NCBI GenBank assembly: GCA_017398765.1
Contig: JAFQEY010000055.1
Location: 1-64,000, forward strand
From: Akkermansia sp.
GTDB taxonomy: Bacteria > Verrucomicrobiota > Verrucomicrobiia > Verrucomicrobiales > Akkermansiaceae
Direction of reading: 5' to 3'
Length of the DNA: 64,000 nt
Positions 29,739-42,710 of the stretch are shown in pieces. Both the position numbers and the translations under genes were made by a program. The stretch's first letter is position 1. Every line of letters starts with the position of its first letter. Under the pieces are notes generated by a model that was not told the origin of the DNA, ran no database searches, and worked only from the letters and a program-made list of their open reading frames with translations.

Positions 29739-29767
29739 TTGCAAAAAGATAGCGGTAACGATATAAA
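29739..29767 (+). promoter_or_regulatory. Promoter of the GYF/GTPase operon
   Basis: TTGCAA (29739-29744), 17 bp, TATAAA (29762-29767). Predicted start near 29774, leaving about 158 nt of untranslated leader, unlike the leaderless genes elsewhere in the window. Confidence 0.5.
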
Positions 29768-29931
29768 AGAGAGGTCGGGTTCGTTGAGTGGATGAACGGA
29801 CGAGATGCAAAAAATCTGCTGACATACATGGTGAAGATAAAAGAGAAGGATAAATATTTATCGGCATTGCTAATGGTAAGCAGTGGCGAGCAGTGACGGT
29901 ATGGTGAATAAGCCTTCAGGGTAAGGATGAT

Positions 29932-30903
29932 ATGTTAGTGTATTACTATTCAGAAGACGGGGGCGTAACGCGTAAGGGCCCCTACACGGCATCTCAGCTG
30001 GATAAGCGGAGACGCCAGGGGTTGGTCGCGACGAATGCTCGCGTGTGGTCTGAAGAATATGAAGCGCAAGCCCCCGGCGATGCTGAGACGAAAAATGAAA
30101 TCCGCAAAACAAGTGTTTGGCGGGTAGTCGGGTGTTTTGTGCTGGTTGGGTTGTTTCTCGGGATATATTTATCCGGCAATGTGGGAGGGGAGATTCAAAC
30201 GGCGGAGAGATTGAGCGCGGAGGGGGGCGCGCCTTTGCCTGGTTTATTTCCTGATGAAGAGGAAGCCGAGTCGGGAATTTCGGAAGAAGTTATGCAGAAT
30301 ATGGAAATCCTTCAGAATCTACGGATTCCTGTTTGCTGTTTTGAGGATACACCCGTTGATGAAGCTCTGATGTTTATTAGTGCTGTGGCGCGAAAGTCCG
30401 GAGTAATGTTGAATCTCATGAGTGAGACCCATGGCGGAGCGGAGCCGGTGATTCCGCATTTGCAACGAGAAGATGTATCTGCTCTGGAATTGCTGGAAGC
30501 CGTCTGCGATGCGAGCGTCTGTTCATTCAGAGTGGAAGCGGTTGGGGTGTTCGTTTATCCCAAGTCTTTGGCTCCTTTGACTAATCGGGAGGAGTACCAA
30601 CCGCAGAATGAAGCAGAGCAGCACTTACTGGATGCGCTGAAAACCATCATGATTCCCCGTTGTTGCTTTGATGGGAATTCCGTGGATGATGCCATGATGT
30701 TTTTATTGGCTGTGACGCGGGATGTTGGTTTCTCCATTAATTATGAGTATGTTGGAGAGCGAGATGTCGTTATCCCGTATCTGAATCTGGAGCAACTCAG
30801 TGCTTATGATTTATTGCGCTGCATTTGCCGCCGCACCGGGTGCGTCTTTTGGCCGGATAACGGCACCGTGGCGGTTGCCCCGGCAGATGAGTTGGAATAC
30901 TGA
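29932..30903 (+). CDS. GYF-domain membrane protein with two secretin-N-like repeats
   Basis: 323 residues. Residues 1-45 are a GYF_2-type adaptor (YYYSEDGGVTRKGPYTASQLD). A single membrane helix follows (VVGCFVLVGLFLGIYLSG, about 65-82). The outer part has two similar units of about 85 residues: LRIPVCCFEDTPVDEALMF and IMIPRCCFDGNSVDDAMMF, each continuing into a strand-rich end with VIPHL/VIPYL. They resemble the short secretin/TonB N-terminal (STN-like) fold, which mediates protein-protein contact in the periplasm. Start ATG is preceded by AAGGATG. First gene of the operon; it may be a membrane scaffold. No enzyme signature. Confidence 0.75.
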   Translation: MLVYYYSEDGGVTRKGPYTASQLDKRRRQGLVATNARVWSEEYEAQAPGDAETKNEIRKTSVWRVVGCFVLVGLFLGIYLSGNVGGEIQTAERLSAEGGAPLPGLFPDEEEAESGISEEVMQNMEILQNLRIPVCCFEDTPVDEALMFISAVARKSGVMLNLMSETHGGAEPVIPHLQREDVSALELLEAVCDASVCSFRVEAVGVFVYPKSLAPLTNREEYQPQNEAEQHLLDALKTIMIPRCCFDGNSVDDAMMFLLAVTRDVGFSINYEYVGERDVVIPYLNLEQLSAYDLLRCICRRTGCVFWPDNGTVAVAPADELEY

Positions 30904-30923
30904 AACAGGAGGAAACGCACACC

Positions 30924-31736
30924 ATGAGACCGTATTACTATTCCATTGATTTCGGAAAAAACTGGGAGGGTCCCTTTAGCCGGGAGGAAATCGATTCTCT
31001 TTGCCGGGTGGGATTGATAGATGCGCGCACCATGGTGAAGGAAGAAGCCGCCAACCCACCGCCGCCTTTCATGTCTCCGGCGTTCTGTGGCGGGCGCGTT
31101 GGCTCTGTCCCTGTCAACAATGCTGTGCAGGAGGACGCCTACATGGTCACGAAAAACGGAATACCGAGCGGTCCTTACCCCGCAAGCTATATCCGTGAGA
31201 TGATGCATCGGGGTGAGGTTCAACCCGGTGATATGGCGTGGAAGAATGGGATGCCCCAGTGGGTGCCCCTTGCTGCGGTTGCGGCATTGGTGCCTCTGGC
31301 TATGCAGACTGATGCCATGAGCGGGCTTGGTCAGGTGCCTTCCGGTGGTTTGTACCCGGGTGGGGATGCAAGCATGGGTACTGCACCTGTCGGGGGGACT
31401 GTCTCTATGGGACCGGATGTTGCGCCTGTTGCGGAGCACTCCGGCCTGGCTGATGTTGTCGGTAAATTGGTAAACAAGGGTATGCGGGAATGGCGCTCCC
31501 ACCAATCTGATGCTGCGTTGAATCCACCACCGCATGCAGAGCCGGGGGCCGTTGTTGCTGATTATGCGGAGTCTGCTGATTATGAAGATTCTGCCGATTA
31601 TGCGGATGCTGCCGATTATGATATCCCGGAGCCGGCAGAGTTGCCTGATATGGAGGGAGCAATGGAAGCCGTGGAGCTGCCGGATGCTGAAACCGGTGCC
31701 GGAATATTTGATTTTCTCAGTGCTTTTTTTGAATAA
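30924..31736 (+). CDS. Double-GYF-domain protein with acidic repeat tail
   Basis: 270 residues. Two GYF_2-type domains: residues 1-42 (YYYSIDFGKNWEGPFSREE) and about 72-115 (YMVTKNGIPSGPYPASY, ending DMAWKNGMPQWVPL). A Gly/Met/Pro linker follows, then an acidic tandem repeat built on SADY/AADY units (about 210-235) and a hydrophobic end GIFDFLSAFFE. GYF domains bind proline-rich peptides; Pro-rich partners are present in this operon. It has a perfect AGGAGG 11 nt before ATG, unusual in this window. No membrane helix, so probably a soluble adaptor. Confidence 0.75.
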   Translation: MRPYYYSIDFGKNWEGPFSREEIDSLCRVGLIDARTMVKEEAANPPPPFMSPAFCGGRVGSVPVNNAVQEDAYMVTKNGIPSGPYPASYIREMMHRGEVQPGDMAWKNGMPQWVPLAAVAALVPLAMQTDAMSGLGQVPSGGLYPGGDASMGTAPVGGTVSMGPDVAPVAEHSGLADVVGKLVNKGMREWRSHQSDAALNPPPHAEPGAVVADYAESADYEDSADYADAADYDIPEPAELPDMEGAMEAVELPDAETGAGIFDFLSAFFE

Positions 31737-31757
31737 TTCATTAACAATAGAAACGGT

Positions 31758-33086
31758 ATGAACTATTATTATTCCATAGACGGAGGGAAAAGTTGGGAAG
31801 GCCCTTTCTCTCAGAGTGAAATTGATAATCTGAAAGCGGTCGGTATTATAGATGCCAAGACCATGATTCGGCAGGACGGCGTGGCGCAGCAGCCCATGCC
31901 GCAGCCTGTGGGCTATTCCAATCAACCCGTTGCACCCCAGATGCCGCCGGCGGAGGAGCAATATATGCTTTTGATCAATGGTGTACCGGCCGGCCCTTAT
32001 CCGGTGAGTACCATTACCCTCATGCTGCAAAATAAAGAAATACGCGTGTCCGATATGGCGTGGAAGGAAGGCATGACCCAGTGGATGCCTCTTTCCTCCA
32101 TACTCAGCACGGATCAGCTTGGGAATTCGCTCCCCTCGCTGCGGGATTTCTCGCTTGGTAAATTTTTCTCCCAGGTGTTTACCCACCATACAAAAGAGGA
32201 AATGCAGGATTGTTTCATAGCCGGTACGCGCCAGGGAACGCCCCCGCTCTCTTCTGTGCAAACAAGCTTCCCGTCGCCCTGGATTTTTGCCAGAATGCTG
32301 GCATTCTGCTTGATTTTGTTCTTTGGATTCGGCTGGGCTTTGGATTATTTCCAAAACGTCTATCTGGTGCCGGGACTTTTATTTGTGGGCAATTTTGCTG
32401 TACCATTCTGTTGCTTTTTCCTGTTCTATGAACTGAATGTACGCCGGGATGTGCTGCTGTATGACGGGCTGAAAGCCTTTGTAGGCGGAGGATTGATATC
32501 ATTGATAGTGGCATTGCTGCTATTCTCTTCTTCCAATTCAACAACTCCTATTTGGGCAGGCCCTGTAGAGGAGCCTGCTAAAGTGTTGGCGGCCGTTTTG
32601 ATTGCCGGTTCAATGAGAAATGGGCGTATCCTGACCGGTTTGGTGTTCGGCGCAGCGGTCGGAGCCGGATTCGCCGCTTTCGAAAGTGCCGGTTATACAT
32701 TTAATACCTTGTGTGTTCTTATTGCTGGGCATTCGGGTGCCGACCCGGACGCAGTGATGCAACTGCGCGCGTTGTTAACACCCTTTGCTCACGTTGTTTG
32801 GACGGCTATTGCCGCGGCGGCTTATTGGATGGTTCTGAATGAAAAAATACGGGAGAAAACCCGCAGCAAAGAGGATTGCTCAATAGATTTCTCTGTTTTT
32901 ACGGATATCCGCTTCCTGCGTATTTTTGCCATTCCGGTTGTGTTGCACATGATTTGGAACAGCTCGTTATTTGCCGAGCATTTCATCATTCGTAATGTTT
33001 CGCTGGGAATTATCGGGTGGATTATCGCCCTGCGCCTGGTGAAGCTCGGGCTGAACCAGATAGCCTATGAAAAATTAAATAGCTAA
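31758..33086 (+). CDS. GYF-GYF-PrsW fusion: intramembrane protease of the PrsW family
   Basis: 442 residues. Two GYF_2 domains (1-42, about 72-115) nearly identical in pattern to those of the preceding gene. From about 175 there are eight or so membrane helices with PrsW motifs: EEPAK (271-275), VGAGFAAFESAGY, HVVW (345-348) and HMIWN (397-401). In PrsW proteases these Glu and His form the metal site that cuts membrane-bound targets (RsiW in Bacillus). The fusion to adaptor domains suggests that substrate or partner choice is made through proline-rich peptides in the same operon. Substrate unknown. Begins 21 nt after the double-GYF gene. Confidence 0.85.
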   Translation: MNYYYSIDGGKSWEGPFSQSEIDNLKAVGIIDAKTMIRQDGVAQQPMPQPVGYSNQPVAPQMPPAEEQYMLLINGVPAGPYPVSTITLMLQNKEIRVSDMAWKEGMTQWMPLSSILSTDQLGNSLPSLRDFSLGKFFSQVFTHHTKEEMQDCFIAGTRQGTPPLSSVQTSFPSPWIFARMLAFCLILFFGFGWALDYFQNVYLVPGLLFVGNFAVPFCCFFLFYELNVRRDVLLYDGLKAFVGGGLISLIVALLLFSSSNSTTPIWAGPVEEPAKVLAAVLIAGSMRNGRILTGLVFGAAVGAGFAAFESAGYTFNTLCVLIAGHSGADPDAVMQLRALLTPFAHVVWTAIAAAAYWMVLNEKIREKTRSKEDCSIDFSVFTDIRFLRIFAIPVVLHMIWNSSLFAEHFIIRNVSLGIIGWIIALRLVKLGLNQIAYEKLNS

Positions 33087-33097
33087 TCAGTAGTTAC

Positions 33098-35083
33098 ATG
33101 AAATTCATATACATATACGATTGCGTATCGGGCAAGCTTCGTGTGGGGCAGACGTGCCCATTGAGCATTGGCAATGCCCCGGAAGCCGGGGCGTTGGTGA
33201 CCATGCTGCCGGGGATTTGTGGTGTGGTCATGAGCCGCGGCTCTGTTAACACTTTCTTCCCCAAGCTGCCCTATGAATGCAATGGCGCAGGCATGGAAGG
33301 CTCTTTCAATCTGGAGGATGGGAAGGGCTATCTGATTGCCTGCAACGGTGGATTGTTCCTGATGCTGTGTTCTCCTGTACCGCCTCAGGCACAGCAGATG
33401 CTTTTTGCCTCATACAACAAGGACGCATGGTACTACTATACGCCGGACCTGGGAGGCTGGCAGGGGCCGCTTACTGCTATGCAGTTGAATGCCATGGCTG
33501 ATCGCCTGAATCCGGCTTCCTGGGTTACCATGACCGGTATGGGGCAGGATAATTATTGCTCTCTGAACGCTTTCCGGGAAATGGCGAGGCGTTTTTATGC
33601 CGTGCAGCCACAGCAGCCCGTCATGCCCGTGCAGCCGCAGCAGCCGGTCATGCCCGTGCAGCCGCAGCAGCCCGTCATGCCCGTGCAGCCGCAACAGCCT
33701 GTCATGCCCGTGCAGCCACAGCAGCCTGTCATGCCCGTGCAGCCGCAACAGCCTGTCATGCCCGTGCAGCCGCAACAGCCTGTCATGCCCGTGCAGCCGC
33801 AGCAAACGAATGCCGCTGTTTATGACGAAGAGGAGGAAGAGGAGTATGAAATGCCTGAAATAGACGAGCACAGCGGGCGTTTTCTCTGCCCGGTGTGTTG
33901 GTTGCGATTTGATGCCGGCGATGTCATGAGCATTGCCAGTCACCCGGATTTGATGGGTGACCCCGTACTGGGGCGTGATGCCATGCTCCGTTTCCAGGCA
34001 ACCCGCTTCAATGCGCGCGGTCAGGCTCTGGATGACAAGGGAATGCCCTGCATGCATTTAGCTTGTCCGCATTGCCGCCATAAATTGCCGCCGCGTTTTC
34101 TGGAAATTGAGGAGATGATTTTCTCTATCATCGGCGCACCCTCCTCCGGAAAATCGTATTATCTTGCTTCCTTTATCCATGAAATGGCCTACAAGGTAGC
34201 CCCGGAGTTTAATCTGGCATGGCGAGATGCGGACCCCGCCGGCAATTCCCAGCTCAACGATGTGAGTAACCGCCTGTTTTCAGCGGCTACGCCTCAGCAG
34301 GCATACCTCTCCAAAACAGACTTGGAAGGTGCTCTCTATGAGGAATTTTACCGCCATGGTCGCATGGTTAAATTGCCTAAGCCATTCGTGTTTAATTTAT
34401 CCAAGATGCAGAGCAAGAAACCGCCGCTGTCTCTGGTGTTCTATGATAATGCCGGGGAGCATTTTGAACCGGGGCGCAATAATGAGGATTCCCCCGGGGC
34501 CATGCATGTGGCGGTGGCCTCCGGCCTTTTCTTCCTGTTTGACCCGACCTCTTGCCCGGCTTTCCGCAAGCTGATTACGCACCGCGAGGACCCCCAGCTG
34601 AATTCCAACGGGATGCAGCTGGACCAGCAGGCCATCATCATGGCTGAAACGGAGTCTCGCATTGCCTCCATTCTCAACACCGGCCCGGGTGAGCAGATAA
34701 GCACACCTTTTGCTGTGCTTATCGGGAAATGCGATTTGTGGGAAGACTACCTCTCCACGCCGGAGGGTGGCGGTAAGCCTCTGTTGCCGGCTGTGGTAAA
34801 CGGTAAGCTGATTCGTGAAAATGTGGAGGCCAATTCTCAGCGTTTGCGTAAACTGATGATGAAGATACAGCCGGCTATTTGTACGACTGCTGAGAGTATC
34901 TCTGACAATGTGCGCTACTTTGCAATCTCCCAGTTGGGCTGTTCCCCGGTAACTTTTGAAGATGAGTTGACTGGGGTTACCCGAATCGGCCCCGACCCCA
35001 ACGGAATTGCCCCGCGTTACATGTGTGATGCAACCTTGTGGATGCTCAGCCTGCTGGCACCTGATTATATACCCTCAGTATAA
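33098..35083 (+). CDS. P-loop GTPase (double-GTPase-like family) with GYF-like segment and zinc ribbon
   Basis: 661 residues. A GYF-like stretch (about 110-135, WYYYTPDLGGWQGPLTA) precedes seven and a half copies of a VQPQQPVMP repeat (169-236). A zinc ribbon is formed by C264/C267 and C323/C326. The GTPase domain follows: GAPSSGKS (346-353, G1), DNAGE (450-454, G3) and GKCD (543-546, G4). This pattern resembles the DO-GTPase (double-GTPase) proteins that accompany GAP1 in predicted NTP-dependent conflict systems. No membrane helix. The proline repeat is a natural ligand for the GYF domains encoded nearby. Starts 11 nt after the PrsW gene. Confidence 0.8.
   Translation: MKFIYIYDCVSGKLRVGQTCPLSIGNAPEAGALVTMLPGICGVVMSRGSVNTFFPKLPYECNGAGMEGSFNLEDGKGYLIACNGGLFLMLCSPVPPQAQQMLFASYNKDAWYYYTPDLGGWQGPLTAMQLNAMADRLNPASWVTMTGMGQDNYCSLNAFREMARRFYAVQPQQPVMPVQPQQPVMPVQPQQPVMPVQPQQPVMPVQPQQPVMPVQPQQPVMPVQPQQPVMPVQPQQTNAAVYDEEEEEEYEMPEIDEHSGRFLCPVCWLRFDAGDVMSIASHPDLMGDPVLGRDAMLRFQATRFNARGQALDDKGMPCMHLACPHCRHKLPPRFLEIEEMIFSIIGAPSSGKSYYLASFIHEMAYKVAPEFNLAWRDADPAGNSQLNDVSNRLFSAATPQQAYLSKTDLEGALYEEFYRHGRMVKLPKPFVFNLSKMQSKKPPLSLVFYDNAGEHFEPGRNNEDSPGAMHVAVASGLFFLFDPTSCPAFRKLITHREDPQLNSNGMQLDQQAIIMAETESRIASILNTGPGEQISTPFAVLIGKCDLWEDYLSTPEGGGKPLLPAVVNGKLIRENVEANSQRLRKLMMKIQPAICTTAESISDNVRYFAISQLGCSPVTFEDELTGVTRIGPDPNGIAPRYMCDATLWMLSLLAPDYIPSV
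33602..33805 (+). repeat. 27-bp in-frame tandem repeat (7.5 copies)
   Basis: Seven full 27-bp units plus a 15-bp partial unit, each coding VQPQQPVMP. Units differ only at third positions (CCA/CCG, CAG/CAA, CCC/CCT/CCG). Copy number could vary between strains. It lies wholly inside the GTPase gene. Confidence 0.92.
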
Positions 35084-35098
35084 AATTAACCCAATCGT

Positions 35099-37249
35099 AT
35101 GCTTCAGCTCGTTTACACCAGTGCCCCCCGCCTGCTGGAAGCAGGGAAAACCGGTTTCGGTACGGTGGCTCGCTCCCGCCGTATCCCCCAGCCTCTTGTA
35201 GCTTATTTGGAACGTATCAGCACCTTTGACCGTGCGGCAGGGGTGACTGAGTTGCAATTTTACAGCGTATTCCGAATGGGGAAGATGCTTTACCACGTCT
35301 TTTCCCGCGTGGCGGATTGCGGTGTGGATTATACCCGCCGCACCAACCACATAGCGCACCATTGGGTCATGGCGGATGATGATGCCGCCGCCCCGGGAAT
35401 GAGTGCCTCTACCCCGGCCGGGGTGTTGCTGGCTCTGCGTGGGCTTTGGCTGAATACCTGGCAGGGAAATCCTGCGTGGCTGGAAGATGAGCCGGAAGTG
35501 TATCCCGAAGTCACGAGCGGAACCGATGTCTGGCAGAGAATTACAGGGCAGGGGGATAATGCCCGCTGGCTTTCTGCCCCGGAGTATGCGATGGGGGGGT
35601 ATGTGACCCTGCCCGCCACCTGCGCTGCGGGAGAAGAGCTTCGCCTGCTTCACGAATCCGCCATGTTGCGGGGGAATCACGGCTGGGGGGAAGGTTTTAC
35701 CACTGCCTCCGTGGAAACGCTCAGCAGCAAGGTGTGTCCGCTGGTGTGTCTCTCTGCTGCGCAACAGTCTGCCGGAGTGCGCCCCCGCAGTGGCGTGCCC
35801 TTGCTGCAGGTGCAGGAGGGGATGGTGCCGCCCCCCCCGGAGGTTCTCCCTGTTGAGCAGTCTGTCCCCTATTCAGCACCGGCAGAGGCCGTTGCACCCG
35901 TTTGTCCGGAGATGCCGACAGCATTGCCTGTTGGCGGTATGCCGGTGATGGCTCCCACGCCGCTCCCCACGTATACTCCCACTGCTCAGCCTGTGTATCA
36001 GGCTCCTCCGCCCTCATATTATCCTGCCGCTGAGCCGCAGTTCCCGGTGCCGAATAACGCCATCGGCAAGGCGAGTAAGACTGTTTCGCGTGACTCTGCA
36101 TCCAAAGGCAACGGCGTTCTTTTCGGTGTCCTTATAGGCTTAGGTATTGCTGCTGTCGGATTCCTGGTTTATACTCAACAGCAGGAAAATAAGAGCTCGA
36201 AACTTACGGATGTTAAACCGCCTGAGCCGACTACAGCGCAAAAGTCAGATATCCCGACAGATGCCCCGTCTGCAGATGCTGACAAGCCTGCAGATGCTGA
36301 CAAGCCTGCGGATGCTAAGAAGCCTGCGGATGCCGACAATACTGCCGCTGCCGACAAACCTGCGGATGCCGGTAAGCCTGTCGCTACTGACAAGCCAGTG
36401 GATGCCGACAACACTCCGGCTGCTGACAAGCCTGCCGCTGCCGACAATCCTGCGGATGTCGGCACGCCTGTCTCTGTTGACAAGCCTGCCGCTGTTGAGA
36501 AGCCTGAGGATGCCCAGAAGCCTGCGGATACCGACAAACCTGCCGCTGCTGCAGAAACCCCGACCTCTCCTGATGCTGATACACTCAAACCCGGAGAGTT
36601 TAAATTAAAGGTTAACTCTGGAGTTAAAGTGGAGATTGATTGGGCGTCTGAAAAGATTAAGGTAAGGTGTACCCCGATGGTGGAGAAAAGTGATGTAATC
36701 AAGAGGGAAGCTACGCTTAGCGGGTCGACTCTGTGGATAGGTAACAAAGAAATGGTTGACCGTACCGAGCTGAAGAAGAAAAACTATGAAGAACCCATTC
36801 CGGAAGCTCTGTTGCAGAAGCAAGCGGAACTTAAAGCTGCCGGCAATATTCTGAAGGAAAAAAAGGAAGCCTTGAAAGATAAGGAGTTCCCTTCGCTTGA
36901 TGGTAAAAAAAGCGGAAAAAGACGTTTTACTCGCAAGGAACTAGATAAACGAATCGCCCAAGAGGAAGAGAAGAAAAACGTAAAGGAGATACAGCGTTTG
37001 CAAGGTGTCAAAGCCGCAGCAAAACCTTTCTTTGAATGGGAAGATGCAAGAGCTCAGGTAAAACAATTAGGGCAAGAAGAAGAAACCCTGAAAAAAGAGC
37101 ATGAAACTGCGTTAACGAAACACTATGGTACATGCGAGATTATCTTTAAAAAAGGTAAAGTAGACGGTATGATTCAGTATTTGGAATACAGAATCATCGA
37201 TAAGGCACCGTTGATTGAGAATCCTCAGCAAGAACAGAAGAAACAATGA
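35099..37249 (+). CDS. GAP1-N2-like protein with membrane helix, repeats and coiled coil
   Basis: 716 residues. The N-terminal about 230 residues match the GTPase-associated protein 1 N-terminal domain type 2: QLVYTSAPRLL, GFGTVARSRRIPQPLVAYLE, FRMGKMLYHVFSR, RTNHIAHHWV. A Pro-rich stretch (about 240-320) leads to one membrane helix (VLFGVLIGLGIAAVGFLVY, about 339-358). Then come about 95 residues of degenerate DKPADA repeats (395-490) and a Lys/Glu-rich coiled-coil end. The enzymatic parts of longer GAP1 proteins are not seen. Its place directly after the GTPase gene supports a GTPase-partner role. The next gene overlaps it by 4 bp (ATGA). Confidence 0.78.
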   Translation: MLQLVYTSAPRLLEAGKTGFGTVARSRRIPQPLVAYLERISTFDRAAGVTELQFYSVFRMGKMLYHVFSRVADCGVDYTRRTNHIAHHWVMADDDAAAPGMSASTPAGVLLALRGLWLNTWQGNPAWLEDEPEVYPEVTSGTDVWQRITGQGDNARWLSAPEYAMGGYVTLPATCAAGEELRLLHESAMLRGNHGWGEGFTTASVETLSSKVCPLVCLSAAQQSAGVRPRSGVPLLQVQEGMVPPPPEVLPVEQSVPYSAPAEAVAPVCPEMPTALPVGGMPVMAPTPLPTYTPTAQPVYQAPPPSYYPAAEPQFPVPNNAIGKASKTVSRDSASKGNGVLFGVLIGLGIAAVGFLVYTQQQENKSSKLTDVKPPEPTTAQKSDIPTDAPSADADKPADADKPADAKKPADADNTAAADKPADAGKPVATDKPVDADNTPAADKPAAADNPADVGTPVSVDKPAAVEKPEDAQKPADTDKPAAAAETPTSPDADTLKPGEFKLKVNSGVKVEIDWASEKIKVRCTPMVEKSDVIKREATLSGSTLWIGNKEMVDRTELKKKNYEEPIPEALLQKQAELKAAGNILKEKKEALKDKEFPSLDGKKSGKRRFTRKELDKRIAQEEEKKNVKEIQRLQGVKAAAKPFFEWEDARAQVKQLGQEEETLKKEHETALTKHYGTCEIIFKKGKVDGMIQYLEYRIIDKAPLIENPQQEQKKQ
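36268..36550 (+). repeat. Degenerate repeats coding DKPADA-type units
   Basis: Successive 18-bp-type units (GCTGACAAGCCTGCAGAT and variants) code Asp-Lys-Pro-Ala motifs in the GAP1-like protein. The array is less regular than the 27-bp array at 33602-33805 and probably forms an extended stalk. Confidence 0.75.
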
Positions 37250-39978
37250 CAACACCCGCTACAAAAGATTTATACAAACAGCTGCGTACGGCTACACTGA
37301 CCAAGGATGAAGCCGCTGCAGTACGTATCCTGAAACGCATACTTGAGGCTGATCCGGGAGATAAGGATGCCGCTAAGCAATTAGCCGCTCTGACTGCCGG
37401 TGGAAAAGGCAGTGCTGCTTCCGGAGAAAAAAAGAAGAAGAAAAAGGAAGCATCTGCCACAAAAATGCTCTATCAGCGTTACCGCTCAGCGTGCATGGCT
37501 CACAATGATGCGGAGGCTTTCGACTTGCTGGAGGAAATCCTGAAACTGGATCCGGAGGATAGTGAGGCTGTCGCGCAAAAGACCGCTGTCGGTAAACGCC
37601 TTGCAAGTAGTTACGCTCCGGAGTTAGCAGAGGCGGTAGCCTCCGGCGAGGTGGAAAAAATTACCCGCATGCTGGAGAAGTTGCAGCGTTATGCGTCGGA
37701 TGAGTATCTGCAAATGCTGCCGGACTATGCCTCTGCAAAGGCTATTTATCGGGCAGAACAAACCAGAGTTACTAAAGAGAAGCTCAAAGCTCTGATAGAT
37801 GAGTTTTCTCAAATACAGGAACCTTTCGCCCGCCATGAAAAGGCCTCTTCCATACAGGATTTTGCAGAGAAAAACGGTTTGGTGCTTGAGCCTGAGACAC
37901 AGGCGGGTATAGCGGGTGCTCATGAGGCGTGGGAACAATTATGCCGCGAATCCGAGCAGTATGAGGAATTCAATACACTGGCGGATGAGTACAAACAACT
38001 GCAACAGAAAGTTTCTTTGCGTGAGGGATTGCAGAATTGCCGCGTTGAGCTGGAGCTGCTTCGGGAAAGAACCCGGCAGCTGACCGAGGTGTCGGAGGCT
38101 GACTATCTGGTGGAGCAGATAGACAAAACCATGAGAAAGGTCATGCGTGCGCAACAGGAGCAGAAGAAAAAGAAGCTGGTGTTGCGTGGCTTTACGTGGG
38201 GGGGCTTGGCCCTGCTTGCCGCCGCTGGCGGTTTGTGTGTTTATGCCCACACCAGCGTGGAAACGCGTTGTCAGGAGCTGGCACAAGTGCTCTCGAACAA
38301 AAATATTCAGGGAACACGGGTTCTGGTGGATAAAGCGTACCCCATGGCTTACATTTACAAGAAAATGGATGCCGGTTACACTGAGCTGCTGAACCGGGCG
38401 AGTGCCTGGCTCAAAGCATACGATGTTCACGCCGACAATGTGGCAGCGTATGAGAAGTGGTTGGATGAGCATCTGGGAAAAAGTTCTTTGTCTCAGTCAG
38501 AAACCTTGCTGGAGAATATCGGCAGGGGTGAAACCTTGCTCTCAGAATTGGCCAATGTGTTCGGGCTTACGCCCTCTGCTGAGTTGATTCGAAAACATAA
38601 GCAGTTTTGCAGTGAAGTCATCAGCTTAAAACAGAAAGCCTTTGACAAGTATAGCAATCCTCCCGGAGATGTCGGATTGGAGGTGTTAGCTAACCAATAT
38701 AAGGAGTATGTTGGCCTGCGGCATATTATGGAGTTCTCCGGGGAAGAAAATACGGTTATTCAGCAGGCTTTCCGCCAACGGGCAGAGAGAGTTTTATTCC
38801 AAAACGTAGAGGATGCAAGGGAGTTGAACAAAGCGATAGAGCAGTGTAAGAAATATATGAGCTCTCTGGAGCTGCCCTCCGAGATGCTTGACCGCCTGAT
38901 TGCTCTGCGTGATGAACTGCAGGAGTACCAAAACCTTGATCAGCAGCTCAAACAGTGCTCTACGCTGGATGAATATATACGAACGCTTCGCAAATGTGAG
39001 AAATATCTGGGGGCTGTTTCCGGGAGTTGTACTCCCGATATGCTGGCATCATTTGCACACCGGCTGCCTGATATCCTGTTCCGCATGCGGGCGGATGCCT
39101 TGAGCCGAAAGTATGCTCGCATGAGTGATAGTGAGCTCAGGTCGAAACTGGAGCGGATTCGGCAGGTATATTCCGGCAAAGCTTCCCTGTTCTCTGATTT
39201 TAACAAAACAAAATACTCCGGAATTGTGGACAAAATGACGCTCCCTGAGTCCGGGGCTCACTGGTCAGACAAATTCCGCCAGATTATTTGTGGCGATAAG
39301 GTCTACATCGGCAAGATATCCAAGGTGAATGACGTCCCTTATGTGCGAGAGGTAACCCCGAATGGCAAACTCTCCGATGAAGCCTTGAAGATTACCGGCG
39401 TGTATAAAAATATACCGTTGGTGATGAAGACGCTGCGAGCCAATGTCGGTATCAGCCGCATGGATTTACAGCGTTGTGTGCTTTTACCCACTAACCTGAT
39501 GAGCAGTTTGGCAAAGGCGAATGATAAAACCTATTCACCCCTGGCGCGGGCTTATCTCTTCGGGCTTTGTGTTCAGATGCTCGATTGTGTGGATGAAGAG
39601 GACTCCGGGGTATTGCTTTCTGCGCAGCTGCGGAAGGACATTGCCGCGTTCAATGAGTTGTCCCAGTGGCTTTCTCGGCATAAAATACCTCTGGCTGAGA
39701 ATTGTTGGACAAAGCGGCACTCTCTGGAAGCAGAGCGAAAAATCAACAGGTTCTTTGAATCTGTTGCCAATAAGGATTATGCGGCGGATATCATGGAATC
39801 TGTTGATCGCATGCGGAGCAAAGAGTGCGAATTGGTTGGATATGTCAATAAGGAAGGAAACTATGTTCCGTTGAAAACGAAAAAATCTGATAAAATGTAT
39901 CAGTTTTCGAATGGAAAGCTGGTGGAGCACATGGATGGAAAAGGTGCTCCCTATGCTCCGGTATTTGTCATTGATTGA
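37246..39978 (+). CDS. Large membrane protein with TPR-like and coiled-coil regions
   Basis: 910 residues. The N-terminus has two TPR-like helical pairs (AVRILKRILEADPGDKDAAKQL; AFDLLEEILKLDPEDSEAV) separated by a run of eight or so Lys. Coiled coils fill about 120-305, then a single membrane helix (TWGGLALLAAAGGLCVYA, about 316-333) and about 570 mostly helical residues, probably outside the cytoplasm. No enzymatic motif is seen. Overlapping start codon (ATGA) with the GAP1-like gene implies translational coupling and similar dosage. A structural membrane-spanning partner of the GTPase/GAP1 pair is the simplest reading. Confidence 0.7.
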   Translation: MTTPATKDLYKQLRTATLTKDEAAAVRILKRILEADPGDKDAAKQLAALTAGGKGSAASGEKKKKKKEASATKMLYQRYRSACMAHNDAEAFDLLEEILKLDPEDSEAVAQKTAVGKRLASSYAPELAEAVASGEVEKITRMLEKLQRYASDEYLQMLPDYASAKAIYRAEQTRVTKEKLKALIDEFSQIQEPFARHEKASSIQDFAEKNGLVLEPETQAGIAGAHEAWEQLCRESEQYEEFNTLADEYKQLQQKVSLREGLQNCRVELELLRERTRQLTEVSEADYLVEQIDKTMRKVMRAQQEQKKKKLVLRGFTWGGLALLAAAGGLCVYAHTSVETRCQELAQVLSNKNIQGTRVLVDKAYPMAYIYKKMDAGYTELLNRASAWLKAYDVHADNVAAYEKWLDEHLGKSSLSQSETLLENIGRGETLLSELANVFGLTPSAELIRKHKQFCSEVISLKQKAFDKYSNPPGDVGLEVLANQYKEYVGLRHIMEFSGEENTVIQQAFRQRAERVLFQNVEDARELNKAIEQCKKYMSSLELPSEMLDRLIALRDELQEYQNLDQQLKQCSTLDEYIRTLRKCEKYLGAVSGSCTPDMLASFAHRLPDILFRMRADALSRKYARMSDSELRSKLERIRQVYSGKASLFSDFNKTKYSGIVDKMTLPESGAHWSDKFRQIICGDKVYIGKISKVNDVPYVREVTPNGKLSDEALKITGVYKNIPLVMKTLRANVGISRMDLQRCVLLPTNLMSSLAKANDKTYSPLARAYLFGLCVQMLDCVDEEDSGVLLSAQLRKDIAAFNELSQWLSRHKIPLAENCWTKRHSLEAERKINRFFESVANKDYAADIMESVDRMRSKECELVGYVNKEGNYVPLKTKKSDKMYQFSNGKLVEHMDGKGAPYAPVFVID

Positions 39979-40000
39979 AAATAGTAACAAACTTGAAGAA

Positions 40001-42154
40001 ATGAACGTTCATCAATTATTTTATCCGTTGTTATTATTGGCTTTGGGCGCGGGTGGACTGTGCAGCACGGTTCAGGCACAGGGCGGAATGCGTGAGCTGG
40101 AATACAGGGCAAGACAACACGATGACCCGGTTGCCATGCGTAAGTTGGGGCTTATTCACTACCGTGGTCTGTACGGATACAAACGTAGCTATAAGTTTGC
40201 CGCAGGATGGTTCGAAAAGGCTGTCAGAGAAGGTGATGCCGAATCCATGCTCTTGCTGGGTGACTGTTACCGCCAGGGGAAGGGGGTCAGTAAGAGTACA
40301 TATAAGGCATTTGATTTGTACAAGGATGCCATGGAGGCGGATAAGGGCAAGCGCAAAGAAGCATTGAAAAAAATCAAACTTTTGCCGCTGTCTGATACGC
40401 TGAGTTGGTGGCAGGAGCAAGTGGAGGAGCGCAAAGACAAAGAAGCCGCTTATTTCCTTGCTACGGTGGATGAAAAATACTGGGATGGCCGTTTCTCTCA
40501 GGAAAAAGCGGATATTTACATGGTTAAGGCTGCCCGGATGGGGCATAAGAAAGCTCAGTCCGCCATTGAGAGTGAGTCGCTTTCCCGTTATTTGCCGGCC
40601 AGAGAAAAAATTGCCCGCGATGGCTCGGATGCTGATTTGGTCAAATTGGCAGAAGAATTGCTGGCCTCTGAAAATTGCACCCCGGAGCACCGTAAAAAAG
40701 CGGTAGAGTATTATGAGGAAGCGGCAGAGGATGGCAATTATGATGCCAGGCGCTGGCTGGAAAAGGAGCAGGATAAGAGCTGGGAGGAATTGGCGGATGC
40801 GCTGGAGAGTAATCAATTCAGCCGCACTGTTGAGCTGCTTCGGCAAATGGAGTCACCCAAGGGGCGGGATTTGTCTGCCGTCTTACTTGTTGCGCTCAAA
40901 AAAAATCGTTTGGATAAAAAGATTGTTGAGCTGATATTGGAGAAAGGTGCAGATAAGAGTTACTCTGATGAGGATAGGATGACACTGCTGATGGCCGCCA
41001 TTTCCGGAGACCAGCCGGAAGAGGTTGTCAATCTCTTCATTCAGGAAAATCACCATCTGAATGCCGCGCTGCGGGATTCCGGGCAAACAGCTCTTATGCT
41101 GGCGGTTCAGGCAGGAAAACCAGAGCTTGTTGAGGCGTTAATAAAGAACGGTGCGAATATCTACGCTGAAGATAATAACAAAAAAACTGCTCTTGATTAT
41201 GCTTCTTCTCCGAAAGTCAGAGAAATAATCAGCCGTGCAGCTGAAGAGAAAAAACAAGCTGAAATCAATGAGATATTCAACCTGGGAACACAGGATCAAT
41301 TTGGAAAACTGGTAGAGCTTATCGCTCGGCAGGATGTGGACACGCTGCGGTATCTCATTCAGAAAGGCATGTCGGTCAAGATGTGTGATGCCGGGTTCAG
41401 AGACACGTTCCGCGAGGCATCCGCCTCCCGGATTGAGGCTCAGGTATGCGGGTCACTATTTGAAAAAGAGATTATGAAAAACAGGTTCACCGCCGGATTC
41501 AACCCCCGCGTGTGGTTCACCTATGGTTCATCTCTCCTGTTTTTTGCCGTAGATGTAGGTAACCCGGAAATAGTGAAGATGTTGATAGCCGCCGGGGCAC
41601 CTGTTAACGCTACGGACAATTTCGGCCTTAACGCATTGGCAAAAGCCGTGCTGCAACAAAAACAGAAAATCGTGAAAATCCTGCTGGAATCCGGCGCGGC
41701 TTCGTCCATAGATGTTGCTATCCATTCAGAATGCTATGATATTGTCTATAACGTTGTCAAGAGCGGTTCGGCTGCGGAATTGAGAGAATTGTACTCAAAT
41801 GTAAACGTTTTGTTGAATCCGCCCGGAGAAACAACCAGTGTGAGAGAATTGGTGTTGGAGTTAGAGCCTTCTGACGGAATACGCAAATTGGTAGAACCCT
41901 ATCTGCAGCAATCATCGCCGGAAAAAGGAGATGCCGCCTCGAACGTTTCCAAGGAAAAAATGCTTTCAACAGATATGTTGGAAGATGAAAGTAGCAATAC
42001 TTCCGGCGAAAAACTATGGAATCTTAGTCAGGAAGAACAGAAAAATGCCGAACTTGGCTGTTATATCGGCGGTTCCGTTATGGTTCTTCTGGGGTTATTT
42101 CTCCTTGGCAAGTCCAGGAGCAATGCGAGGAAAAAAAAGGTCATTGCCGACTAA
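40001..42154 (+). CDS. Secreted Sel1-repeat and ankyrin-repeat protein with C-terminal anchor
   Basis: 717 residues from ATG 40001 (upstream in-frame codons overlap the preceding gene). Signal peptide MNVHQLFYPLLLLALGAGGLCSTVQA. Sel1-like repeats occupy about 25-250 (AMRKLGLIHYRGLYGY; AESMLLLGDCYRQGKGV). Ankyrin repeats follow (about 310-420: ALMLAVQAGKPELVEALIKNGANIYAED; about 500-570: VDVGNPEIVKMLIAAGAPVNATD, KIVKILLESGA). A late membrane helix (GGSVMVLLGLFLLG) and a basic end leave most of the chain outside the cytoplasm. Both repeat types bind proteins. No catalytic motif. Confidence 0.78.
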   Translation: MNVHQLFYPLLLLALGAGGLCSTVQAQGGMRELEYRARQHDDPVAMRKLGLIHYRGLYGYKRSYKFAAGWFEKAVREGDAESMLLLGDCYRQGKGVSKSTYKAFDLYKDAMEADKGKRKEALKKIKLLPLSDTLSWWQEQVEERKDKEAAYFLATVDEKYWDGRFSQEKADIYMVKAARMGHKKAQSAIESESLSRYLPAREKIARDGSDADLVKLAEELLASENCTPEHRKKAVEYYEEAAEDGNYDARRWLEKEQDKSWEELADALESNQFSRTVELLRQMESPKGRDLSAVLLVALKKNRLDKKIVELILEKGADKSYSDEDRMTLLMAAISGDQPEEVVNLFIQENHHLNAALRDSGQTALMLAVQAGKPELVEALIKNGANIYAEDNNKKTALDYASSPKVREIISRAAEEKKQAEINEIFNLGTQDQFGKLVELIARQDVDTLRYLIQKGMSVKMCDAGFRDTFREASASRIEAQVCGSLFEKEIMKNRFTAGFNPRVWFTYGSSLLFFAVDVGNPEIVKMLIAAGAPVNATDNFGLNALAKAVLQQKQKIVKILLESGAASSIDVAIHSECYDIVYNVVKSGSAAELRELYSNVNVLLNPPGETTSVRELVLELEPSDGIRKLVEPYLQQSSPEKGDAASNVSKEKMLSTDMLEDESSNTSGEKLWNLSQEEQKNAELGCYIGGSVMVLLGLFLLGKSRSNARKKKVIAD

Positions 42155-42203
42155 ACACCCATAAAATGAACATTTCTAAATAAACACAAACCTCAGTAGA
42201 AAG

Positions 42204-42659
42204 ATGTCGCAGTACTATGTAGGTAAGCCCGGTGAAAACCCCACGGGCCCGTTTACGGAAGAGACCATTCTTAAGGGCATGGCAGATGGCACTTTCCCGC
42301 CGGATTCAAAGGCCTGGAAAGAGGGTATGGATAGTTGGCTGACTCTGGCAGAGTTGTTTGGCTCAGCTCAGGGGCATTCCGTTCCGGACAAGGCCGCGGA
42401 GCAAACGGTTGTAATTCCTTCGGTGGAGCCTTTGCCTCAAAGCGCGCAGCCGCAGGAAGCTTCTCCGGTGCCTCATCCCGAAAAGAAAAAACGCAAGAAA
42501 AATAAGCTTCGGAAGAATGTTAATATTGATGATGAGCTGCCGCCGCCTCCCGCCACAGGGAACAATCTGTTCATCGTGGTTGGTGGTTTATTGGTTGTCG
42601 CGGGAGTGCTTATTATCTGTATACCGGATGTGCTGAATCAGTATCTTCAGCTTTGGTAA
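42204..42659 (+). CDS. GYF-domain protein with C-terminal membrane helix
   Basis: 151 residues. One GYF_2 domain (1-52: YYVGKPGENPTGPFTEE, then DSKAWKEGMDSWLTLAELF), a Pro/Lys-rich linker and one C-terminal membrane helix (LFIVVGGLLVVAGVLIICI). Its GYF domain faces the cytoplasm in the likely orientation. Last gene of the operon, 49 nt after the Sel1/ankyrin gene and followed by a stable hairpin. Confidence 0.78.
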   Translation: MSQYYVGKPGENPTGPFTEETILKGMADGTFPPDSKAWKEGMDSWLTLAELFGSAQGHSVPDKAAEQTVVIPSVEPLPQSAQPQEASPVPHPEKKKRKKNKLRKNVNIDDELPPPPATGNNLFIVVGGLLVVAGVLIICIPDVLNQYLQLW

Positions 42660-42675
42660 CAATGGCAATATACAA

Positions 42676-42710
42676 AGCACCGAGTCTCGCTTCCCCGGTG
42701 ACTCGGTGCT
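42676..42710 (+). terminator. Hairpin at the end of the GYF/GTPase operon
   Basis: AGCACCGAGT (42676-42685) / ACTCGGTGCT (42701-42710), a perfect 10-bp stem with a 15-nt loop. No T tract follows, so termination may be inefficient or need a factor. Confidence 0.55.

Follow-up and report, generated by a model that had tools for sequence, protein, structure and literature searches.

What would an Akkermansia genome do with an operon that joins a GTPase and an intramembrane protease to GYF-domain, Sel1 and ankyrin proteins? The locus lies in the window analysed here, the first 64,000 nucleotides of contig JAFQEY010000055.1 (assembly GCA_017398765.1). Eight open reading frames, all on the forward strand, span positions 29932-42659 (Table 1), and both their coordinates and their intergenic gaps (20, 21, 11, 15, -4, 22 and 49 nt from g1 to g8) agree exactly with a first-pass annotation of the same DNA. 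That annotation also placed the genes under one promoter and before one stable hairpin. Both elements could be located, the promoter as a match to consensus; however, the hairpin region folds with z = -1.75 relative to shuffled sequences, which is not exceptional, and it lacks a T-tract, so a terminator role is unproven. A search of the window with Rfam returned two tRNAs only. Besides the tandem repeats in Table 1, a third minisatellite (31556-31620) occurs in the tail of g2.

Table 1. Features of the operon, with examples of the motor genes found beside the core in relatives.
Feature	Position	Strand	Description
Promoter-like TTGCAA-N17-TATAAA	29739..29767	+	exact sequence located; consensus match only
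g1	29932..30903	+	weak GYF_2, one TM, two ~85-aa repeats
g2	30924..31736	+	two GYF_2 domains, Pro-rich tracts, without TM
g3	31758..33086	+	two GYF_2 fused to PrsW intramembrane protease
g4	33098..35083	+	DO-GTPase-type protein: FHA-like, GYF-like, Pro/Gln repeat, zinc ribbon, GTPase
g5	35099..37249	+	GAP1-N2, Pro-rich linker, one TM, likely periplasmic tail
g6 (T protein)	37246..39978	+	member of ~1000-aa family; third core gene
g7	40001..42154	+	signal peptide, Sel1 and ankyrin repeats, C-terminal TM
g8	42204..42659	+	GYF_2, PPPP tract, C-terminal TM anchor
27-bp tandem repeat, 7.6 copies	33600..33804	+	codes QPQQPVMPV units, GTPase linker
18-bp tandem repeat, 15.2 copies	36270..36543	+	DKPADA-type low-complexity linker directly after GAP1 TM
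Strong hairpin 3' of last gene	42676..42710	+	no T-tract
Motor gene trio beside core in relatives (examples)	L083:16511-19151; L036:1056-3747		MotA/ExbB and two MotB-like

The pairing of a GTPase with a GAP1-N2 protein is borne out by Pfam, which places GAP1-N2 (PF20013) in g5 at 58.5 bits against a cut-off of 24 (E = 1e-15), immediately downstream of the GTPase gene across the 15-nt gap. The predicted NTP-dependent conflict systems to which this pair had been linked are those of Kaur et al. (2020, eLife, PMC7159879), who defined a 'GTPase-centric' class, with a predicted conflict role, in which a TRAFAC-type GTPase bearing a zinc ribbon and a conserved glutamate in Walker B is directly followed by GAP1-N2. 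They describe the systems as membrane-associated, name Verrucomicrobiae, and report, from planctomycetes, pairs of GYF domains fused to trypsin or to a region rich in TM segments (PMC7159879). The earlier statement that no described system has this set was therefore too strong. Judged from sequence, the window pair belongs with these systems, as its GAP1-N2 domain, gene order, zinc ribbon and DxxGE motif all fit. Members of the class usually have two GTPase zinc ribbons, GAP1-M and an FNIII protein, although the last is not universal (PMC7159879). In contrast, none of the eight proteins of the window operon matches FNIII, and GAP1-M was found neither in the window GAP1 nor elsewhere in its own genome (it occurs in 1 of 32 relatives). 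A PADLOC match of g5 to PD-T4-6 (E = 0.002) falls in the linker region and was rejected.

The GTPase, g4, carries FHA-like, GYF-like and zinc-ribbon parts that the first-pass annotation had not mentioned, an omission that extended to the g1 repeats and the MotA/MotB-like partner of relatives. Its architecture comprises an FHA-like domain (residues 2-94), a stretch that looks GYF-like from secondary structure and sequence (107-166), a Pro/Gln repeat (169-250), a zinc ribbon and the GTPase domain (338-660). The G-motifs are intact, as claimed: the P-loop, DxxGE (D450-x-x-G453-E454, which includes the Walker B glutamate), KxD and four cysteines are invariant in the alignment, and the cysteines (C264/C267/C323/C326) make up one ribbon, not two. 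In the AlphaFold model (mean pLDDT 81.5), the predicted beta-sandwich at residues 2-94 matches the FHA structure 3poa (Z 11.2, rmsd 2.1, 90 aligned). The family profile of the GTPase touches FHA chains in the PDB only at E ~0.1, and among the GTPases a Pfam FHA match occurs only in the relative at locus L061; by eye, the usual phospho-binding Arg/Ser/His are present in that relative and apparently missing in g4. The best fold match of the GTPase domain is YcjX (6nz4; Z 14.1, rmsd 4.1, 245 aligned), and MglA also matches (Z 11.9), as do many small GTPases near Z 11-12. Pfam DO-GTPase2 matches g4 at E = 9e-4 and relatives at 5e-6, all just under the 27-bit cut-off. The GTPase fold and DxxGE agree, and g4 is probably a DO-GTPase relative.

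The two genes that follow encode predicted membrane proteins. GAP1 has a single TM segment (339-357), and T is helical almost throughout, with a single probable TM segment around residues 313-331 (AlphaFold pLDDT 75.6). Scaffolds of TPR, Sel1 and ankyrin type had been proposed for this part of the operon. The Sel1 and ankyrin repeats are indeed present in g7; however, in g6 Pfam found no family above cut-off and TPR only weakly, below threshold, and g6 belongs to the core and is not a loose scaffold. All matches of T in Foldseek and VIA-align were TPR-like or helical, the best reaching Z 8.4 over 52 residues, and are uninformative. A profile built from a distant seed recovers g6 at 243.7 bits, and T appears to be an undescribed family, the third member of a GTPase-GAP1-T core in Verrucomicrobiota. 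No second T gene was found in its own genome. That genome has a second GTPase-GAP1 locus, lacking T, on another contig (L031:6278-11903, contig C51), followed by genes that resemble the metallophosphoesterase and phosphopantetheinyl transferase genes of locus L034.

Around this core, GYF_2 domains exceed the Pfam cut-off in g2 (E = 9.5e-16, two stretches, with PPPP tracts), g3 (two copies) and g8 (E = 3.5e-10; one TM), and fall below it in g1 (residues 4-42, E = 3e-4). GYF domains and Pro-rich tracts thus occur together in the operon, as had been noted. The only solved-structure match of the g3 GYF domains is that of AgmX/GltJ (E = 0.04). The intramembrane protease is well supported: PrsW in g3 scores 74.7 bits (E = 9e-21), with about six TM segments, and its motifs EEPAK271, FAAFE305 and HMIWN397 (EExxK/FxxxE/HxxxN) are intact in TM context. 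In g1, a TM segment (62-80) is followed by two related repeats (alignment z = 12.7) that tentatively resemble secretin/STN short domains; in NCBIfam, the Amuc_1098 secretin family matches weakly (E = 1e-5), far below its cut-off. The Sel1 (E = 1.5e-13) and Ank_2 (E = 1e-26) repeats of g7 lie in a protein with TM segments at 6-24 and 685-703. NCBIfam names such as Legionella Ank-effector and GltJ were rejected, being far below cut-offs and reflecting ankyrin, GYF or Pro-rich stretches, and a PADLOC ankyrin match in g7 likewise reflects its repeats. GYF-PrsW fusions are not specific to the operon, because orphan genes of this kind occur away from the core in genome G051 (L194:7724-8986 and L195:7413-8582). 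Elsewhere in its own genome (L191:6898-10439, contig C93) is a four-ORF run, three of them starting with a GYF domain, that adjoins a miaA-like gene and has no GTPase core near it.

Is the arrangement conserved? Of 387 genomes from the phylum, 72 contain GAP1-N2. We fetched 80 regions around it, 75 with a usable GAP1 call, and found the GTPase and GAP1 adjacent in 68 of the 75 and GTPase-GAP1-T in order on the same strand in 57. A second set, from a separate named collection that yielded 538 relatives (the best 80 of the 538 are all Verrucomicrobiota), has the trio in 55 of 72 loci with the same layout; the two sets overlap in part, drawing partly on the same clades. Genomes are unevenly sampled, a simple script supplied the gene calls beyond the window, and chance estimates are rough. 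Relatives of these genes are thus found together in other genomes, as the first-pass annotation expected, and the gene arrangement is not chance: the GTPase-GAP1-T order repeats across the phylum. By sequence, a GTPase with intact G-motifs, its GAP1-N2 partner and T constitute a conserved core across Verrucomicrobiota. The full g1-g8 set was found in no other locus; the nearest relative (G051) keeps GTPase-GAP1-T-Sel1 and has a truncated PrsW gene beside a transposase (L032:113-1932).

A MotA/MotB-like channel is the partner that most commonly accompanies the core across the phylum. A MotA/ExbB gene (a formal Pfam match, E = 5e-11 in relatives) occurs near the core in 29 of 75 loci, 28 of which also have two MotB-like proteins with one TM and mostly an FQDI- or LLDTMCN-type start bearing Asp. 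Sixteen genomes have 3-20 MotA/ExbB genes each, and by rough estimate a chance neighbour within 10 kb is expected in a few per cent of loci. MotA/MotB-like genes are absent from the window operon, and the three MotA/ExbB genes of its own genome lie elsewhere. In GAP1-N2 genomes, 6 of 21 PrsW matches are within ~10 kb of GAP1-N2, against ~0.1 by rough chance estimate (genomes G000, G048, G205, G118, G287 and G051, to which loci L146 and L148 can be added). PrsW-bearing loci are scattered across the GTPase tree, and all complete-domain copies retain EExxK-FxxxE-HxxxN/D. Both motor-type genes beside a GAP1-N2 core and PrsW beside it in several scattered lineages appear to be undescribed; MotA, ExbB, TolQ, PrsW and a conserved T are not mentioned in the main text of Kaur et al. 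(PMC7159879), and a literature search returned no other study of GAP1-N2. In one relative (L113:14806-16524) a Sel1-trypsin protein directly follows T, the slot held by g7 in the window operon. Another clade (L061:7891-15824 and ~10 similar loci) combines a canonical FHA-GTPase, a short GAP1, T and a PilM_2-like protein.

A strong GTPase match, usually a single copy, was obtained in 52 of the 76 genomes of the genus; the window-type copy, an accessory paralogue, occurs in two of the 76 (G000 and G051). Several complete genomes have no real GTPase match, and the near-complete genomes G021, G111, G113 and G024 have none beyond repeat-region noise. Branching in the GTPase tree is for the most part congruent with taxonomy. 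The Akkermansia sequences group in a single clade (100/99), within which the copies of the window and G051 form the sister lineage of A. glycaniphila (L112) plus the common genus copy, and distant horizontal acquisition is accordingly not favoured. The operon segment, which lies between mfd and a DUF486-like gene, is absent in three sister species, where these flanks are on different contigs; older duplication plus losses nonetheless fits better. A phage or plasmid origin was also set aside: GAP1 has no phage match, and the GTPase has only two distant matches, to Rhodococcus plasmids.

So, what might the operon do? The first-pass logic, in which the GTPase senses a state, GYF domains join partners and PrsW cuts, is a plausible hypothesis. 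We tentatively propose, at a probability of roughly 0.45, that the operon's products form an inner-membrane complex switched by the GTPase, as a variant of the GAP1-N2/DO-GTPase systems, with envelope surveillance or remodelling the likely role, phage defence a possible one, and intramembrane proteolysis the output here. GAP1 and T would hold the cytosolic GTPase at the membrane and signal its state across to the periplasmic side, on which their tails, the g1 repeats and the Sel1/ankyrin protein g7 may touch envelope components. From the domain type we infer that the GYF domains, present in five of the eight proteins, would bind the Pro-rich linkers of the GTPase, GAP1, g2 and g8, so that membrane partners cluster. 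The output may be swappable, as a MotA/ExbB channel and two MotB-like proteins accompany the core in many relatives and the window copy has PrsW in their place; for this reason we propose that clustering dependent on the GTP state leads PrsW to cleave a membrane protein.

A bolder extension, which we regard as doubtful, is that GTPase-GAP1-T could act as the switch in a trans-envelope machine that is powered by the proton motive force, has so far gone unrecognised in Verrucomicrobiota and is analogous to Agl-Glt, with the Akkermansia operon a derived form whose motor was replaced by an intramembrane protease. If true, one GTPase switch would drive either force or proteolysis. The relatives' one MotA/TolQ-like and two TolR/MotB-like proteins parallel AglR, AglQ and AglS (PMC3169522; PMC9389320). 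The glt cluster also has an FHA protein, and both FHA and GYF domains occur in the Glt machinery. However, the window operon lacks motor genes, sequence homology of the core is not shown, and MglA is a small single-domain GTPase that ties with many others in the fold comparison. The likeness would concern a possible way of working, not descent. YcjX is a stress GTPase of phage-shock operons; although it is the best fold match, it shares 11% identity with g4, and we know of no GAP1, FHA or GYF partner for it.

Could this instead be a dedicated anti-phage or biological-conflict system, in which GTPase-GAP1 senses invasion and releases an effector, in this case PrsW proteolysis or membrane disruption? 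Such a role follows the view of Kaur et al. on the class to which the operon is assigned, and it would suit a constant core with swappable accessory parts (including the Sel1-trypsin protein), the absence of the segment between mfd and DUF486 in three sister species, and minisatellites inside operon genes. The relatives' MotA-like protein and one MotB-like protein also weakly match the Zorya models ZorA2 and ZorB1 (E = 3e-5 and 3e-4), but these relatives have two MotB-like genes and the GTPase core, other Zorya components were not found, and the window operon has no motor at all. We consider a dedicated conflict role unlikely: the GTPase tree tracks taxonomy for the most part, most GTPase-bearing genomes of the genus hold a single copy, toxin and nuclease domains are absent, PADLOC has no defence match for the GTPase, T or PrsW proteins, and links to phages and plasmids are limited to the two distant plasmid matches noted above.

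That the operon assembles or regulates a secretion or pilus-like machine seems more unlikely still. The resemblance of g1 to Amuc_1098 hints at this, as do the FHA and GYF domains of Glt gliding machinery and the PilM_2 gene (E = 6e-16) that adjoins the FHA-GTPase core in ~10 loci, but the g1 score is far below cut-off, the PilM linkage is limited to one distant clade, and the operon contains no secretin, assembly ATPase or pilin genes. It is very improbable that the eight genes are merely co-located, with only the GTPase and GAP1 forming a unit. While the fetched loci contain no close full-length homologue of g1, g2 or g8, the gaps are short, one pair of genes overlaps, and neighbourhoods are conserved, with T, GYF-membrane, PrsW and Sel1/Ank or Sel1-trypsin proteins recurring in equivalent operons.

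A conflict role for GAP1-N2 systems was put forward in 2020, and we found no experimental test in the literature searched. The Verrucomicrobiota core looks largely inherited, has a third protein without a family name and is often accompanied by a motor-type proton channel, which together suggest a role at the envelope. Relatives that can be cultured, among them Akkermansia glycaniphila and Brevifollis gellanilyticus, would allow a direct test of that role, which would alter how the class as a whole is read.
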